From a virus, in the IMG/VR virus record IMGVR_UViG_3300025736_000081, positions 1 through 37,158 of that record: 37,158 nt of DNA, one strand, 5' to 3'. Of this stretch, positions 1,661 through 17,490 are shown one piece after another. Made by a program: the position numbers and the translations under genes. The notes under the pieces were generated by a model. That model had not been told where the DNA came from, did no database searches, and saw nothing but the letters and a program-made list of their open reading frames with translations. Position 1 is the first letter of the stretch. Each line of letters begins with the position of its first letter.

Positions 1661-3190
1661 TTACTGAAAAGCTCCGCGCAACACAGGAGTATTTTCAACG
1701 GCCTGTCTTCCAGTAATACCTAACTTTCTTAAAAGTGCGTCTACATTCGGGTTAGTAGCAAACTGGCGTACATCTTGAAAACCCTCGCCAGCGCCTCTAG
1801 GTAACGCCCTAGTTTCTGCAAACTCACGAATAAAGGCTGGCAAAGAAGACATATCTTCCCGGCTAAGAGCTGCTGCCAAAGAATCTAAAGTACTCGCCCC
1901 ACCCTCTCTAATTGAAGCACCTGCCCTACCCGTAGCTTCGGCCCCCCGTTGAGCAAGCTCCGAAACTTTTGTGTCTAAAACTTCCCCCACACGCCCTAAA
2001 CTAGGCAAAGTTGGTCTAGCTTGCATACCCGCAGGGTTTAAAAAAGCGTACACAGGGGTAACAATGTCACCCTGCAACTGCCCCGACAAATGCTTAATCG
2101 TGTCGTAACCAAACTCTTCCATTATGGGGCGCACAGCCTCTGAATAACGCGATTCATGCAAACCGCCCATGCTTGGGCCAGACCTAGTTAAATCCATTTT
2201 TGCTAAATCATCCGCAAAATTTAGTACATCGTCCGGGTCATCAAATTCATTTACAAGGCGTTGGTACAAAGCCGGGTCAACCTCGTCTAGCGTACCCTGT
2301 GTCAAATCAAGAATTTTACGATTAGCCACATCAGACATTGGCTCCGACAACCTGAACTTTGCTCCACGAGTAACAGGAAAACCACGTTGCGTAAGACCCG
2401 GAGGTAACTGGCCCGCCGGTAACCGAGTACCAGACTGCGTGTAACCCTCAGCTACTTGACGTCCCTTTCTACCTATCGCCCCAAAAATGTCCCCGCCAAA
2501 CCAGTTACGTGCCCAACTCTCAGCATCCCGGCTAACTGCAGTAAAAGGTTTAGCAACATTCGCTCCCGTATCCCTACTACCGTGATACAGCCCACGAACA
2601 ATCGAATTGTACAAAGCTTGGTTCTCAGGAGCCATCGCCCGGTAAGCATTGTAAGGTTTCGAAACAGCATCACCAGCAGCCCTAACAGCACCCCTACCAA
2701 CACCACCAACACCACCAGCCACCAAACCCGTTAACAAATCTAAAGCTGTCGCACCACCCCGAGCCGCTAACGCCGCACCACCCTCCAAACCAAACCTATC
2801 CACAGCAGCCTCACCAGCCGCCTCAAACTCGCGCGGTAGAAAAAGCGGTGTCTGTCCCTGCCCCGGTTTAAAAACATCTGACCACAAACCACCAACTTGC
2901 TGACCATAATTTTGTAGAGCCCGAGAACCCGGAGACTGCTCGCCCAGCATGTTACCCGCCACAGCATCACGGTGCATACCCCCAATAGCCTGCACAGGCA
3001 CATCAAGCAAACCCAGAAAACTACCTAAAGCTGCTTTAGCTGCTTTGTTCTGAACATTGTTTCCGGGTTGCCCATAAGTTTGTTCGTACCAACGAGAGGG
3101 CTTAAACGCTCGCAGAGGAGCTGTCGTGTCCTTCGGACGATACTGAGCAGCCAAATCCGCCTGACGCGGGTTAGAAATAGGAATGCTCAT
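1661..3190 (-). CDS. ADP-ribosyltransferase-like polyvalent/virion protein (509 aa)
   Basis: Residues 1-130 are polar, 140-175 are a Gly/Ala-rich hydrophobic stretch, and at 201-205 comes LYHGS. This is followed by a partly conserved core with an S/T-rich strand and, about 170 residues later, EEFGYDTIKH and VYAFLNP. YHG(S/T) at the start and GYDxI with a final YxxFNP-like strand are the layout I know from ADP-ribosyltransferase domains of phage polyvalent proteins, which are injected with the DNA and modify host targets. I cannot confirm the catalytic Glu. The tail (residues 390-509) is alpha-helical and Ala-rich. ATG 3190 is used; ATG 3214 in frame adds eight residues, and neither has a clear Shine-Dalgarno. 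It is the first late gene, 53 bp upstream of the HTH gene. Confidence 0.5.
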   Translation of the reverse strand: MSIPISNPRQADLAAQYRPKDTTAPLRAFKPSRWYEQTYGQPGNNVQNKAAKAALGSFLGLLDVPVQAIGGMHRDAVAGNMLGEQSPGSRALQNYGQQVGGLWSDVFKPGQGQTPLFLPREFEAAGEAAVDRFGLEGGAALAARGGATALDLLTGLVAGGVGGVGRGAVRAAGDAVSKPYNAYRAMAPENQALYNSIVRGLYHGSRDTGANVAKPFTAVSRDAESWARNWFGGDIFGAIGRKGRQVAEGYTQSGTRLPAGQLPPGLTQRGFPVTRGAKFRLSEPMSDVANRKILDLTQGTLDEVDPALYQRLVNEFDDPDDVLNFADDLAKMDLTRSGPSMGGLHESRYSEAVRPIMEEFGYDTIKHLSGQLQGDIVTPVYAFLNPAGMQARPTLPSLGRVGEVLDTKVSELAQRGAEATGRAGASIREGGASTLDSLAAALSREDMSSLPAFIREFAETRALPRGAGEGFQDVRQFATNPNVDALLRKLGITGRQAVENTPVLRGAFQ

Positions 3191-3234
3191 AAAAACATAA
3201 TACAACACATCCACAAAAACATGATTTTAATTTT

Positions 3235-3263
3235 ATAGTACACAAACAATATTCACTCTTGAA
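3235..3263 (-). promoter_or_regulatory. Candidate late promoter
   Basis: On the minus strand, TTCAAG (3263-3258) and TACTAT (3240-3235) are 17 bp apart, and the -10 is preceded by TGTG, giving an extended TANNNT box in an AT-rich stretch. It would drive the late unit with a leader of about 15-40 bases. It is the best candidate I see in the divergent gap, but the -35 match is weak. Confidence 0.4.
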
Positions 3264-3311
3264 ACGTATCGCCCAGGGAGATACAAACCAAGCAGAAATG
3301 TCAGCGTTCAA

Positions 3312-3330
3312 CGACATTCAATAAATGTCG
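3312..3330. repeat. Inverted repeat CGACATT / AATGTCG
   Basis: Perfect 7-bp arms (3312-3318 and 3324-3330) flank a 5-base loop. A further AATGTC lies at about 3298-3303, so GACATT could pair with either copy. It sits upstream of the candidate late promoter. It could be an operator or an RNA hairpin. Confidence 0.45.
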
Positions 3331-3364
3331 GGAGTTCGATGACACCCCTCCTCGAACCCCCAAC

Positions 3365-3393
3365 TCTTTACAGATACGGTTGGTGTGTAAAGA
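3365..3393. repeat. Inverted repeat TCTTTACA / TGTAAAGA
   Basis: Perfect 8-bp arms (3365-3372 and 3386-3393) have a 13-base centre. Centre-to-centre spacing is two helical turns (21 bp), the geometry of a dimeric repressor or activator site. No matching copy was noticed elsewhere. Confidence 0.4.
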
Positions 3394-3576
3394 ATAAGAA
3401 GGCCTAAGTCTGTTTCAAACCGCCCAGCATCAGCACGAACACGCGGATGTGGCTTGCAAATAGTATGCGCTGGCATCCTGGAGGGTCGAATCTGTGCGTA
3501 CGCGCGATTGTCGTTTGACCCCCCGCTTCCCTTGAATGACAGTAACACCACACTTAAATGACAGCGCGTACACACA

Positions 3577-3640
3577 TCCATGTATATGTGGACAAAACGT
3601 TCCATGTATATATGGAAATCAGCATCCGTGTATATACGGA
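3577..3640. repeat. Three near-palindromes at exact 24-bp spacing (operator or iteron array)
   Basis: Copies start at 3577, 3601 and 3625. They read TCCATGTATATGTGGA, TCCATGTATATATGGA and TCCGTGTATATACGGA. Each is close to a 16-bp palindrome, TCCrTGTATATryGGA. The third differs by compensating changes in both arms (A to G and T to C), which means the symmetry itself is kept. Spacers are 8 bp and not conserved. This layout suits a dimeric DNA-binding protein or replication-initiator iterons. Confidence 0.75.
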
Positions 3641-3804
3641 AATTAGGTGTCAAAACTTTATCCTTGGTTACAGGATTCGTTACCCAAGGCTATCCAGTGA
3701 CACTTCTAGCGTACATTAGCGTCCATGACCCCCAAAAAACAAACCCCAAAACATGGGTCAAATGGATTATGTGTTCAGTCCTTTACAACATCATTCTTGG
3801 GTTG

Positions 3805-3813
3805 TGGTACGTT
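3805..3813 (+). promoter_or_regulatory. Candidate early promoter, extended -10
   Basis: TGGTACGTT matches the TGNTANNNT extended -10. A TTTACA lies 20 bp upstream of the -10 hexamer, longer than ideal. The same TGGTACG(C/T)T string precedes genes at 5343 and 10723. The palindrome CCCCTAGGGG lies just downstream of the expected start. Confidence 0.4.
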
Positions 3814-3897
3814 AGATGTATCGCCACCGGCACCCCTAGGGGATTGATGCAGGGGGCAGACATCGCAAGTTGATAACTCCACAGAGACACACTCACC

Positions 3898-3919
3898 GGG
3901 ATACACTCCCGTGTATCCC
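3898..3919 (+). promoter_or_regulatory. Leader hairpin before the first early gene
   Basis: Nine-base perfect arms GGGATACAC and GTGTATCCC close a TCCC loop. The hairpin ends seven bases before the TTAGGAGA Shine-Dalgarno of the gene at 3940. It lacks a following T-run, so it is not a terminator. It may protect the transcript end or bind a regulator. Confidence 0.5.
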
Positions 3920-3939
3920 CTAACCATTAGGAGAAACAA

Positions 3940-4146
3940 GTGAACGATTACGATGACGAAATTGAAAGTATTGAGGCGTGTCTTGAGAGCATGATTGAGC
4001 TCTTGGCAGAGACACGGGATTACTTGCACCAGGGTTTGGTAATCAAGGCATCAGACAAAGCGTATGAGCTCAAGGGCTGGTACCGTCGCACGGATGCCTA
4101 CACCCATGACCTTTTCACTCAGCTTGAGCGGGAAGCCAAAAAGTAA
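3940..4146 (+). CDS. Small acidic early protein (68 aa), unknown
   Basis: The GTG start has AGGAG seven bases upstream; the product begins MNDYDDEIESIE. It is acidic at the N-terminus and predicted helical throughout: the first 30 residues form a heptad-like amphipathic helix (IEACLESMIELLAETRDYL), followed by a basic, aromatic second half (KGWYRRTDAY). It is the first gene of the early unit, as expected for host-takeover or regulatory peptides, but no family is recognised. It is separated from the next gene by a GC-rich hairpin. Confidence 0.7.
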   Translation: MNDYDDEIESIEACLESMIELLAETRDYLHQGLVIKASDKAYELKGWYRRTDAYTHDLFTQLEREAKK

Positions 4147-4583: not shown

Positions 4584-4898
4584 ATGGACAGAACAACATC
4601 AGGCACCTGGGAGGTCGTGGACGGCAAGCTGGTCGACATAGACCCCCAAATCATTGACCGAGGCTACTGGGTAGCCACCACCAACGACATCGCCACCAGT
4701 GACGACGACGTGGACCGCCTTGCCATCGCGCACATCGACAACGGTGCCGGGTTTGTCGGAATCTGGTGGGGCGGAGACATCACCTTCGTCGACAACGTGC
4801 AGCTGGTCGGCGACCTCATCGACGCGATTACGCTCGGACGCCTCCACGCCCAAGAATCCATCTGGGACATCTACCACAACCACGAAATCAACCTATAA
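4584..4898 (+). CDS. Small acidic early protein (104 aa), unknown
   Basis: The ATG has AAAGGAG upstream at good spacing. Very acidic (DIDPQIID, TSDDDVDR), with repeated short strands and tryptophans (GYWVATTND, GFVGIWWGGDITFVD), then a C-terminal helix and a His-rich end. The fold looks like a compact beta-rich domain; no cysteines and no membrane segment. It is a monocistron, flanked by its own promoter and by a strong terminator at 4913. Its length and charge resemble early host-takeover proteins, but no homology is claimed. Confidence 0.7.
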   Translation: MDRTTSGTWEVVDGKLVDIDPQIIDRGYWVATTNDIATSDDDVDRLAIAHIDNGAGFVGIWWGGDITFVDNVQLVGDLIDAITLGRLHAQESIWDIYHNHEINL

Positions 4899-7251: not shown

Positions 7252-7433
7252 CCGATTACATTGATGACCCACGATTCACGGGGGTTACGTACAAACAATT
7301 TATGAACATTGTGGACCGGCACTGGAGCGATGGGGTTGTAAAAACACATCCCCGCACGGGTGAGCTCATTGTCCAGACTGGTGTGGTGCGTGACGGTGAT
7401 GACGTTATTAAGTTGCCCGATGAAGAACTCTAA
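7248..7433 (+). CDS. Small protein (61 aa), unknown
   Basis: Starts MTDYIDDPRFTGVTYKQF with GAAGGAGAGGACGC upstream and an ATGA overlap. An N-terminal helix (YKQFMNIVDRHW) is followed by strands. Acidic C-terminus. The last 14 bases overlap the start of the HTH gene that follows in another frame. Not recognised. Confidence 0.65.
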   Translation: MTDYIDDPRFTGVTYKQFMNIVDRHWSDGVVKTHPRTGELIVQTGVVRDGDDVIKLPDEEL

Positions 7434-15471: not shown

Positions 15472-17224
15472 AAGCATTGAAGCAGAAAGCATGAAAGTTC
15501 TGGATTATCTTGCGGGTAATCCAGGCTCAGTAATCTCTTTAGATACTGAAGCGACAGGGCTGCGGGTAGCTGGCGACGATACGTGCATCGGAGTCAGCCT
15601 CGCAGCCGTCATTAACGACACGCCCATAAGTCATTACTTTCCCTTTTTTCACAAAACGGGAGAAAACTGCAGCTCTGCGGTTCTGCTTAAGTTAAAAGAA
15701 GTACTCGAAGAAGGTAACCACACGCTGGTGTTCTGCAACGTGCAGTACGACATCCTGTCGCTCAACACCATTTACATTTACTTGGACCACACAGATTTTA
15801 TTGATGTACCCACTGTGGCCCACCTTATTAATGAAAACAAACCATTCAACAAAGGCCTCGATTCGCTTGCCGCCTTTTACCTCAGAGACGAAGGCAAAGT
15901 CAAAGACCCCGTAATTGATAAAGAAAAGAAAACAGGTTGGGAAAACACCACCTGGCAAATGATGTGGGAATACGCTGTAAGGGACGCAGAACTCACCTGG
16001 AGGCTCTGGGCCCTGCTTCAAGAGCTGCCTCACTGGAAAGAACTACCCGCCGACCTGTGGTCTCACAAACAAAACCTTGTTCGCCTACTTCTGTCGATGA
16101 AAAGACACGGTGTAAATATTGATGTACAACTTGCCCAGAAGTATGTACAACTGGGGGAAGAGCACATGGCTCGGCTGCAAGAAGAGCTAGGCGCCAACCC
16201 GGCAAGTCCAAAGCAACTGAAAAAGCTCCTTATCGATGACTTAGGGCTACCGATTGTAAAGAGTAGTGTCAAAACGGGGGCGCCTAGTTTCGACAAACAA
16301 GCCATGTTAGCTTACGATTCTATGCTTGAAGAGCTAAATTCACCCGTTGCAACGCAAATAAAAGAGTTCAGGGGGTGGCAGAAAGCCGTCAGCGCCGCGT
16401 ACAGGCCCTATCTTGACCTAGTTGATGTGGATGGTCGACTTAGGTGCAGTTATCGCCTTCACGGGACTGCTACGGGGCGTCTTTCTTGCGCCGAACCCAA
16501 TTTGCAGCAAATACCCAAATCATCCGACAAACCCTGGAACGGAAAAGTCAAAGACTGTTTCATAGCCCAACCTGGATGGAAATTGATAAACGCAGACTTC
16601 AGCCAACTAGAACTGCGTTTAGCTACAGCCTACGCGGGAGAAGAAGAGCTCAAGATTGTTTTTAACGAAGGCCGCGACATTTTTACCGAAATGTCAAAAC
16701 AATTAGGGATGTCCCGCCACGACACAAAAACACTTGTCTATTCCATGCAATACGGCGCAGGAGAGCAACGACTCATGGACGCATTCAACGTAACCCGAGA
16801 ACGCTCCAAAGAAATACGTCAAAACTATTTCACCACCTACCCCAACTTCCGCCGATTCAACGAACGATGCACAGCCAAAGTAGAGCAATCAGGAAAAATT
16901 AAAATTTGGTCAGGCAGAGAACGACACTTTGAAAACCGTAACGACGGATACAAAGCAATGAACAGTGTCATCCAAGGAGGAGCTGCCGATATTGTAGAGC
17001 GAATCATGGTCCGTGCGTTTCAAGAACTAGAGGGGCCGGAGTGTCGGATTTTACTTCAGGTACATGATTCCATTACATTTGAAGTTAAGGAACCAGCAGT
17101 ACCCCAATATGTCGAGAAGATACGGACACTCATGGAAGACGTAAACGCCGTAACCGGTGACGTCAACTTCGATGTCCGATTTGCAGTAGAGGTAGATAGC
17201 TGGGTTCCTGAGGAGGACGGATAA
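15461..17224 (+). CDS. DNA polymerase I-like family A replicative polymerase (587 aa)
   Basis: The 3'-5' exonuclease has D28/E30 (SLDTEATG), NVQYD and YAVRDAELT; the polymerase has motif A DFSQLELRL (D379), motif B RHDTKTLVYSMQYGAG (R419, K423, Y427) and motif C VHDS (H535, D536). There is no 5'-nuclease domain, so this is a phage replicase with proofreading. Y427 is equivalent to Pol I residue 762, where T7 also has Tyr. The TTG at 15461, with AAGGAC at good spacing, is the preferred start; ATG 15491 would cut the first ten residues, and an ATG at 15428 adds eleven. Overlaps the helicase gene by 11 bases. Confidence 0.95.
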   Translation: MNFESIEAESMKVLDYLAGNPGSVISLDTEATGLRVAGDDTCIGVSLAAVINDTPISHYFPFFHKTGENCSSAVLLKLKEVLEEGNHTLVFCNVQYDILSLNTIYIYLDHTDFIDVPTVAHLINENKPFNKGLDSLAAFYLRDEGKVKDPVIDKEKKTGWENTTWQMMWEYAVRDAELTWRLWALLQELPHWKELPADLWSHKQNLVRLLLSMKRHGVNIDVQLAQKYVQLGEEHMARLQEELGANPASPKQLKKLLIDDLGLPIVKSSVKTGAPSFDKQAMLAYDSMLEELNSPVATQIKEFRGWQKAVSAAYRPYLDLVDVDGRLRCSYRLHGTATGRLSCAEPNLQQIPKSSDKPWNGKVKDCFIAQPGWKLINADFSQLELRLATAYAGEEELKIVFNEGRDIFTEMSKQLGMSRHDTKTLVYSMQYGAGEQRLMDAFNVTRERSKEIRQNYFTTYPNFRRFNERCTAKVEQSGKIKIWSGRERHFENRNDGYKAMNSVIQGGAADIVERIMVRAFQELEGPECRILLQVHDSITFEVKEPAVPQYVEKIRTLMEDVNAVTGDVNFDVRFAVEVDSWVPEEDG

Positions 17225-17490
17225 TGAACGAAAAAGAACAGTTTGTTGCGGGGATGGCTCACTGCTATCAGTTGCTTGCTCAGGAGCTGCGGGTGAAGCG
17301 TGAGGCGTTCCAAACTGTATGGGACTTCTATTACGAGCATGTCGATTTTGTGGGCGACGCTGAAAGCACTTTGTCAAAGGAGTTGGCTTTCGCCTCTAGT
17401 GTGATGCAGCATATGGAGAACGCCCTTGAGAGCGCATATTTTGATGAACTAGACAACTATAGGGACAAAATTGAGGACGAAGAATGCTAG
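17224..17490 (+). CDS. Acidic helical protein (88 aa), unknown
   Basis: ATG has GAGGAGGACGGATA upstream and overlaps the polymerase stop. Wholly helical: FVAGMAHCYQLLAQELRVKREAF, then a second helix with aromatic residues, then an Asp/Glu-rich end. The spacing of hydrophobics suggests a two-helix hairpin or dimer. Its position after the polymerase suggests a replication accessory role, but no family is seen. Confidence 0.7.
   Translation: MNEKEQFVAGMAHCYQLLAQELRVKREAFQTVWDFYYEHVDFVGDAESTLSKELAFASSVMQHMENALESAYFDELDNYRDKIEDEEC

Follow-up and report, generated by a model that had tools for sequence, protein, structure and literature searches.

The window analyzed here, a 37,158-nucleotide stretch covering positions 1 to 37,158 of IMG/VR virus record IMGVR_UViG_3300025736_000081, is a 37-kb virus record; Microbacterium phage Shocker and Arthrobacter Jasminevirus are among its relatives, with major capsid identities of 55% and 43%, respectively. 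A gap between divergent genes contains three near-palindromes of 16 bp, located at 3577–3592 (TCCATGTATATGTGGA in the window, TCCATGTATATGTGTA in relatives), 3601–3616 (TCCATGTATATATGGA), and 3625–3640 (TCCGTGTATATACGGA, nearly invariant), with start-to-start distances of 24 and 24 bp, as an earlier note on this DNA had described. The three-copy array is well beyond chance. Its consensus, at up to three mismatches, matches the window six times, five of them inside the array, against an expectation of 0.14, and six matches are reached in 0 of 100 shuffled windows. Judged by symmetry alone, the array stands out less: shuffled windows contain on average 0.08 phased triples in which every dyad has 6 or more of its 8 pairs, an uncommon outcome but one possible by chance, and the repeated sequence is the source of the significance. 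The 24-bp spacing is preserved in most of 15 aligned contigs. The sites form one cluster per genome, with none elsewhere in the genomes, and therefore do not constitute a regulon. The further statement that no gene covers the array holds in the sense that no known gene lies there, though open reading frames overlap it on both strands; their frames are broken by an 11-bp insertion (contig L062), a 70-bp indel, and truncations. A small coding repeat, in which 24 bp would equal eight codons and for which most contigs keep an open plus frame (HTSMYM...VTQG), was rejected: the frame is shifted in L062 and interrupted in L063 and L083, and there is no evident ribosome-binding site.

The dyads are imperfect, pairing at 6, 7, and 7 of 8 positions in copies 1, 2, and 3. 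Positions 6 and 11 are mismatched (G/T) in all three window copies, and among 15 sequences this pair, wherever it is kept, is G..T in all copies. In the same 15 sequences, copies 2 and 3 have A-T, G-C, or an asymmetric A..C at pair 4/13; the last form, with C instead of T at position 13, occurs in copy 2 of 8 of the 14 sequences that keep the pair, window included, and in copy 3 of one sequence. Paired changes in both arms of copy 3 had been read as a sign of selection on the symmetry. Such a change is real in the window (A..T to G..C, copies 2 versus 3), but the symmetry is not conserved, and the paired change is weak evidence for selection on it because one-sided A..C intermediates are common among relatives. 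The same variants bear on a structured non-coding RNA gene, on the plus or minus strand, with the dyads as tandem hairpins. The non-Watson-Crick dyad pairs in the window are all G-U when read on the plus strand, plus-strand 3215–3710 folds better than shuffles (z of −5.0; −4.25 for the array alone), and RNA-based phage origins are known from cluster A mycobacteriophages (PMC7157519). Across relatives, however, the A..C forms break the copy-2 hairpin on the plus strand in 8 of 14 sequences, the G..T pairs leave the minus strand mismatched in all copies, and no consistent pairing of either RNA strand was found. RNAalifold on the element alignment gives no covariation support, with an unfavorable covariation term of 0.33; neither the element nor p98, a protein family considered below, has a match in Rfam, Pfam, PHROG, or NCBIfam; and no clear promoter-terminator pair surrounds the element, including by inspection. 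The strand-wise broken pairs and lack of covariation speak for an oriented double-stranded DNA site and against both an RNA hairpin and strict selection on the dyads. The apparent placement of the window and L065 elements outside transcripts, judged from gene order and promoter-like sequences, also favors DNA. An RNA gene is quite unlikely.

The array is the core of a non-coding stretch of ∼300–440 bp that is common to otherwise unrelated actinobacterial phages. Scans of the viral collection locate it in about 20 contigs, which belong to at least two other kinds of phage and are otherwise unrelated to the window. The core element common to these contigs spans 3403–3695 and includes the most conserved block, 3566–3695, with a mean identity of 95% between contigs and 89–99% between the window and the others. 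An optional stretch at 3502–3565 is present in the window, L026, L027, L049, L065, and a truncated L083 and is missing in the other contigs. A second shared block at 3258–3294 (GTATC...GATACAAACCAAG) has the order and orientation relative to the core that it has in L032. Around copy 1, a wider inverted repeat at 3568–3593 reads GTACACA-N12-TGTGTAC in relatives. The second arm is TGTGGAC in the window, a variant that creates TTGTCCACA, a perfect actinobacterial-type DnaA box, on the minus strand, where copy 1 has the DnaA-box-like TTGT(C/A)CACA. Copy 3 is adjoined by GGTGTCAAAAC at 3646–3656, invariant in the contig alignment, and by an invariant TTGACA on the minus strand, and an inverted repeat, CCTTGG...CCAAGG, occupies 3662–3689 at the right end of the element. 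The blocks, dyads, and inverted repeats are annotated without strand. Misassembly of the window contig is an unlikely source of its element, which has its own variant (TGTGGAC) and no exact match to another contig. Among 18 element contigs, six (L045, L064, L027, L036, L065, and L066) end less than 160 bp from the element, probably an effect of assemblies breaking at shared sequence.

The identity of the core block exceeds that of genes near the element (79% for p98, 82% for p108, and 80% for HNH DNA), and in 54 of 55 contig pairs the block shows greater conservation than p98. Part of this high identity could come from recent recombination or gene conversion instead of constraint. The region is mosaic, with alternative allele segments and the 70-bp indel; one repeat unit is deleted in L066, 11 bp are inserted in L062, an insertion or truncation affects L063 and L083, and L036 and L063 contain partial duplications. 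L066, L063, and L083 are natural variants that tolerate a lost or displaced copy, a point against the reading preferred below. Mosaic edges, partial duplications, and the one-unit deletion are also what might be seen if the element were a selfish or hitch-hiking intergenic sequence, of MITE or MPME type, or a functionless recombination junction; MPMEs are small mobile elements of actinophages, and MPME1 is 439 bp long (PMC3029335). This reading is highly improbable given the absence of a transposase ORF, the lack on inspection of clear terminal inverted repeats or fixed ends (the ends vary between contexts), the single copy per genome, and a conservation greater than that of neighboring genes. 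The element also has no match in isolate phages or plasmids, and an exact 19-mer search for a host copy in 84,980 bacterial and archaeal species returned two unrelated, chance-level matches only.

The distribution among the phage's own relatives is the reverse. Nearly 30 loci were gathered by helicase and HTH searches, and a profile scan finds the array in none of them, the best matches being single sites inside the helicase gene; the element is likewise absent from anywhere in four large relative records of 38–49 kb (G009–G011 and G013). Direct reading of the gap in L004 and L005 places the start of the left gene ∼40 bp from the promoter region containing TAGCGTAC, with no array between them. 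The window has ∼440–480 extra bp (roughly 3230–3700) between the left gene and the native promoter region, and the comparison indicates that the element entered the window phage as this additional segment. The native promoter and leader of the rightward operon (3700–3940, plus strand) show partial conservation in relatives without the element. Nearby, the N-terminal part of a 517-amino acid protein (2657–3096) is 97–98% identical to L023 and L024, the rest being unrelated, and appears to be another recently exchanged segment. The earlier note had held that absence of the array from close relatives would count against it. The array is indeed absent there, but its strong conservation in unrelated phages indicates a real functional element, probably acting as a DNA site and not as a switch for the window phage's own genes.

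This pattern excludes the proposal that the HTH protein at 1084 or the one at 7420 uses the repeats as operators, because the distributions of array and HTH genes disagree. Many relatives without the array retain HTH1084 (at up to 83% identity) and HTH7360, and no element-bearing contig, most of them partial, encodes either one. An operator or promoter region for the neighboring genes is suggested by the intergenic position of dyad-symmetric sites adjoining gene starts and by the invariant minus-strand TTGACA beside copy 3. By inspection, however, no TATAAT-like hexamer lies at the right distance from that TTGACA, both HTH candidates fail by distribution, no further sites exist elsewhere in the genomes, and the flanking genes differ among the four gene contexts described below, leaving regulation of neighboring genes a distinctly unlikely role. 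A separate octamer, GTACGCTA, occurs at window positions 3707, 5277, 6344, and 10686 and at equivalent places in relatives, mostly in the sense of transcription, and overlaps promoter-like sequence upstream of some genes. It is a better candidate than the array for a family-wide regulatory motif.

Most carriers are siphophages that encode a tape measure protein, a RecE-like exonuclease, HNH, and a replication initiator, and the element in them lies in the order 108aa-p98-element-HNH-RepI. Among cultured phages, the one closest to them is Pontimonas phage phiPsal1 (terminase 57% identical), which has the gene order exonuclease-192aa-108aa-...-HNH-RepO and in which no equivalent array was found at the matching synteny position. 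A second context is provided by G001, a 44.5-kb record of a different kind of phage with a Clavibacter-phage-like terminase, in which the order is p98-element-TerS-TerL and the element is directly upstream of TerS. The L065 element is flanked by a terminator and a promoter, and that of the window occupies the divergent gap. Upstream of a promoter in L065, at 4726–4741 of that contig, is a perfect parS-like TGTTTCACGTGAAACA, the only one among the loci searched. The element is thus shared by unrelated phages, independent of position, unusually slow to change, and absent from the window phage's own relatives.

HNH genes are often found beside cos sites. That association, together with the position immediately upstream of TerS in G001, would suit a packaging or genome-end site (cos, pac, or the edge of a terminal repeat). 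Direct terminal repeats of 484, 1330, and 1551 bp are present in the cultured relatives Shocker (MW507126), Jasmine (NC_041875), and Adat (MF668266), respectively, and in all three the inner edge lies 65–66 bp upstream of the first rightward, structural-side gene. This distance maps to ∼3256 in the window, where the foreign segment begins; the coincidence is suggestive only, and the segment may begin at the terminal-repeat edge. Against a packaging role, the terminases of the carriers are unrelated, the window family has a terminal repeat without the element, and proximity to terminase genes does not extend to all carriers, those of G002 being ∼18 kb from the element. A genome-end function is very unlikely on this evidence.

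A possible partner of the element is p98, a family of 88–98-amino acid proteins whose gene adjoins it in nearly all other carriers. The window homologue, an 88-amino acid acidic helical protein encoded at 17224–17490 on the plus strand, is 13.5 kb away, and tblastn finds no match for the gene in the window phage's own relatives. Gene and element do not always go together: in L080 the gene occurs with no element nearby, and the 5.5 kb of L065 contain the element but no p98 gene. The predicted fold is a two-helix hairpin, and fold comparison gives insignificant matches only, the best being T4 Vs.4 (E of 0.59), a cGAMP-binding phage protein. The strongest alternative to the reading preferred here is a self-immunity or anti-defense DNA site resembling aba of BstA prophages, by which carriers would escape or titrate a host defense protein and which would spread among phages of one host. 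Spread through unrelated phages, position independence, non-coding nature, a single copy per genome, and strong conservation all fit this alternative. No BstA or other defense gene was identified nearby, however, the element is much longer than aba, and p98 belongs to no recognized family, such that an anti-defense site is, on balance, unlikely.

The distribution is best explained, at a probability of roughly 40%, if the array forms the core of a double-stranded DNA element, non-coding and cis-acting, that is exchanged horizontally, is read by a factor, and is possibly origin-like. Several unrelated phages of actinobacterial (Microbacteriaceae-like) hosts would carry this element once per genome, and the three dyads would be binding sites, phased on the DNA, for a factor common to all infections, the simplest candidate reader. 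The putative reader could be a host protein or something tied to the 88–98-amino acid protein. In the window phage, the element would have been inserted with the structural-side operon on one side and the native early promoters on the other, close to the position of the terminal repeats in related phages.

The most likely specific job of such an exchanged element, a guess and a doubtful one, is that of an origin-like or replication-assisting site, in which the repeats would serve as iterons next to DNA that melts readily. In duplex instability the element ranks at the 97.4–100th percentile of each of five contigs tested, within the top 2.6%, and the 60-bp minimum of stability for the entire window, 3187–3246, lies between the element and the left gene, although low duplex stability also fits promoters. 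In siphophage carriers, the replication initiator gene RepI is downstream of the element, after HNH. An iteron-type origin would combine repeats of fixed period with an easily melted neighbor, both of which are seen here, and with a cognate initiator in every carrier, which is not. A RepI homologue is absent from G001 by tblastn and was not found in the window family, and the replication module of the window differs from that of the siphophage carriers. The lack of an initiator gene common to all carriers argues against an origin but still allows a host initiator; the DnaA-like box in copy 1 fits an origin but is the only one in the element and is one base off in most carriers. GC skew, which the earlier note had proposed as a check on an origin at the array, lends it no support: skew follows gene direction, is monotonic in G002, and has its minimum ∼3 kb from the element in G001 (44-kb record). 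A broader possibility, rather unlikely, is a portable DNA-only element with no common viral gene, which unrelated phages of a single host lineage would exchange because a host factor reads it, as a universal replication start or as a defense decoy or immunity tag. Non-coding DNA that evolves more slowly than adjacent genes and moves among unrelated phages suggests a shared function facing the host, one missed by gene-based annotation. If read by a host protein, the element would mark a common replication handle or a common defense target in poorly studied actinobacteria and their phages.

The element bears partial resemblance to several known systems. The cos/cosB regions carry TerS-binding R sites. 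Three 16-bp sites, adjoining TerS in G001, recall this arrangement, but the carriers' terminases are unrelated and the element is far from TerS in siphophages. Cluster O mycobacteriophages have 17-bp palindromes, TGTTCGGNNNCCGAACA, proposed to be protein-binding sites (PMC4351075), and these are likewise dyad-symmetric actinophage repeats; they occur throughout the genome, at 34 sites in Corndog, whereas the present array is a single phased cluster in unrelated phages. The RNA-based origins of cluster A extrachromosomal prophages also lie in non-coding phage regions of ∼400–500 bp but require an expressed RNA (PMC7157519), and RNA structure is not conserved in the present element. The likeness to phage and plasmid origin arrays, which is at the level of sequence only, extends to repeats that are partly dyad-symmetric and lie in tandem at even spacing, in a single cluster per genome, within non-coding DNA that melts easily; the element differs in that no common initiator gene travels with it and in being shared across different replication modules. 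The aba element of BstA prophages is a 63-bp DNA element that requires its terminal direct repeats and acts as DNA (PMC8585504). The present element is longer and has no BstA gene, but in its sequence features it is similarly a short, phage-carried DNA element with repeats, here possibly also acting as DNA.
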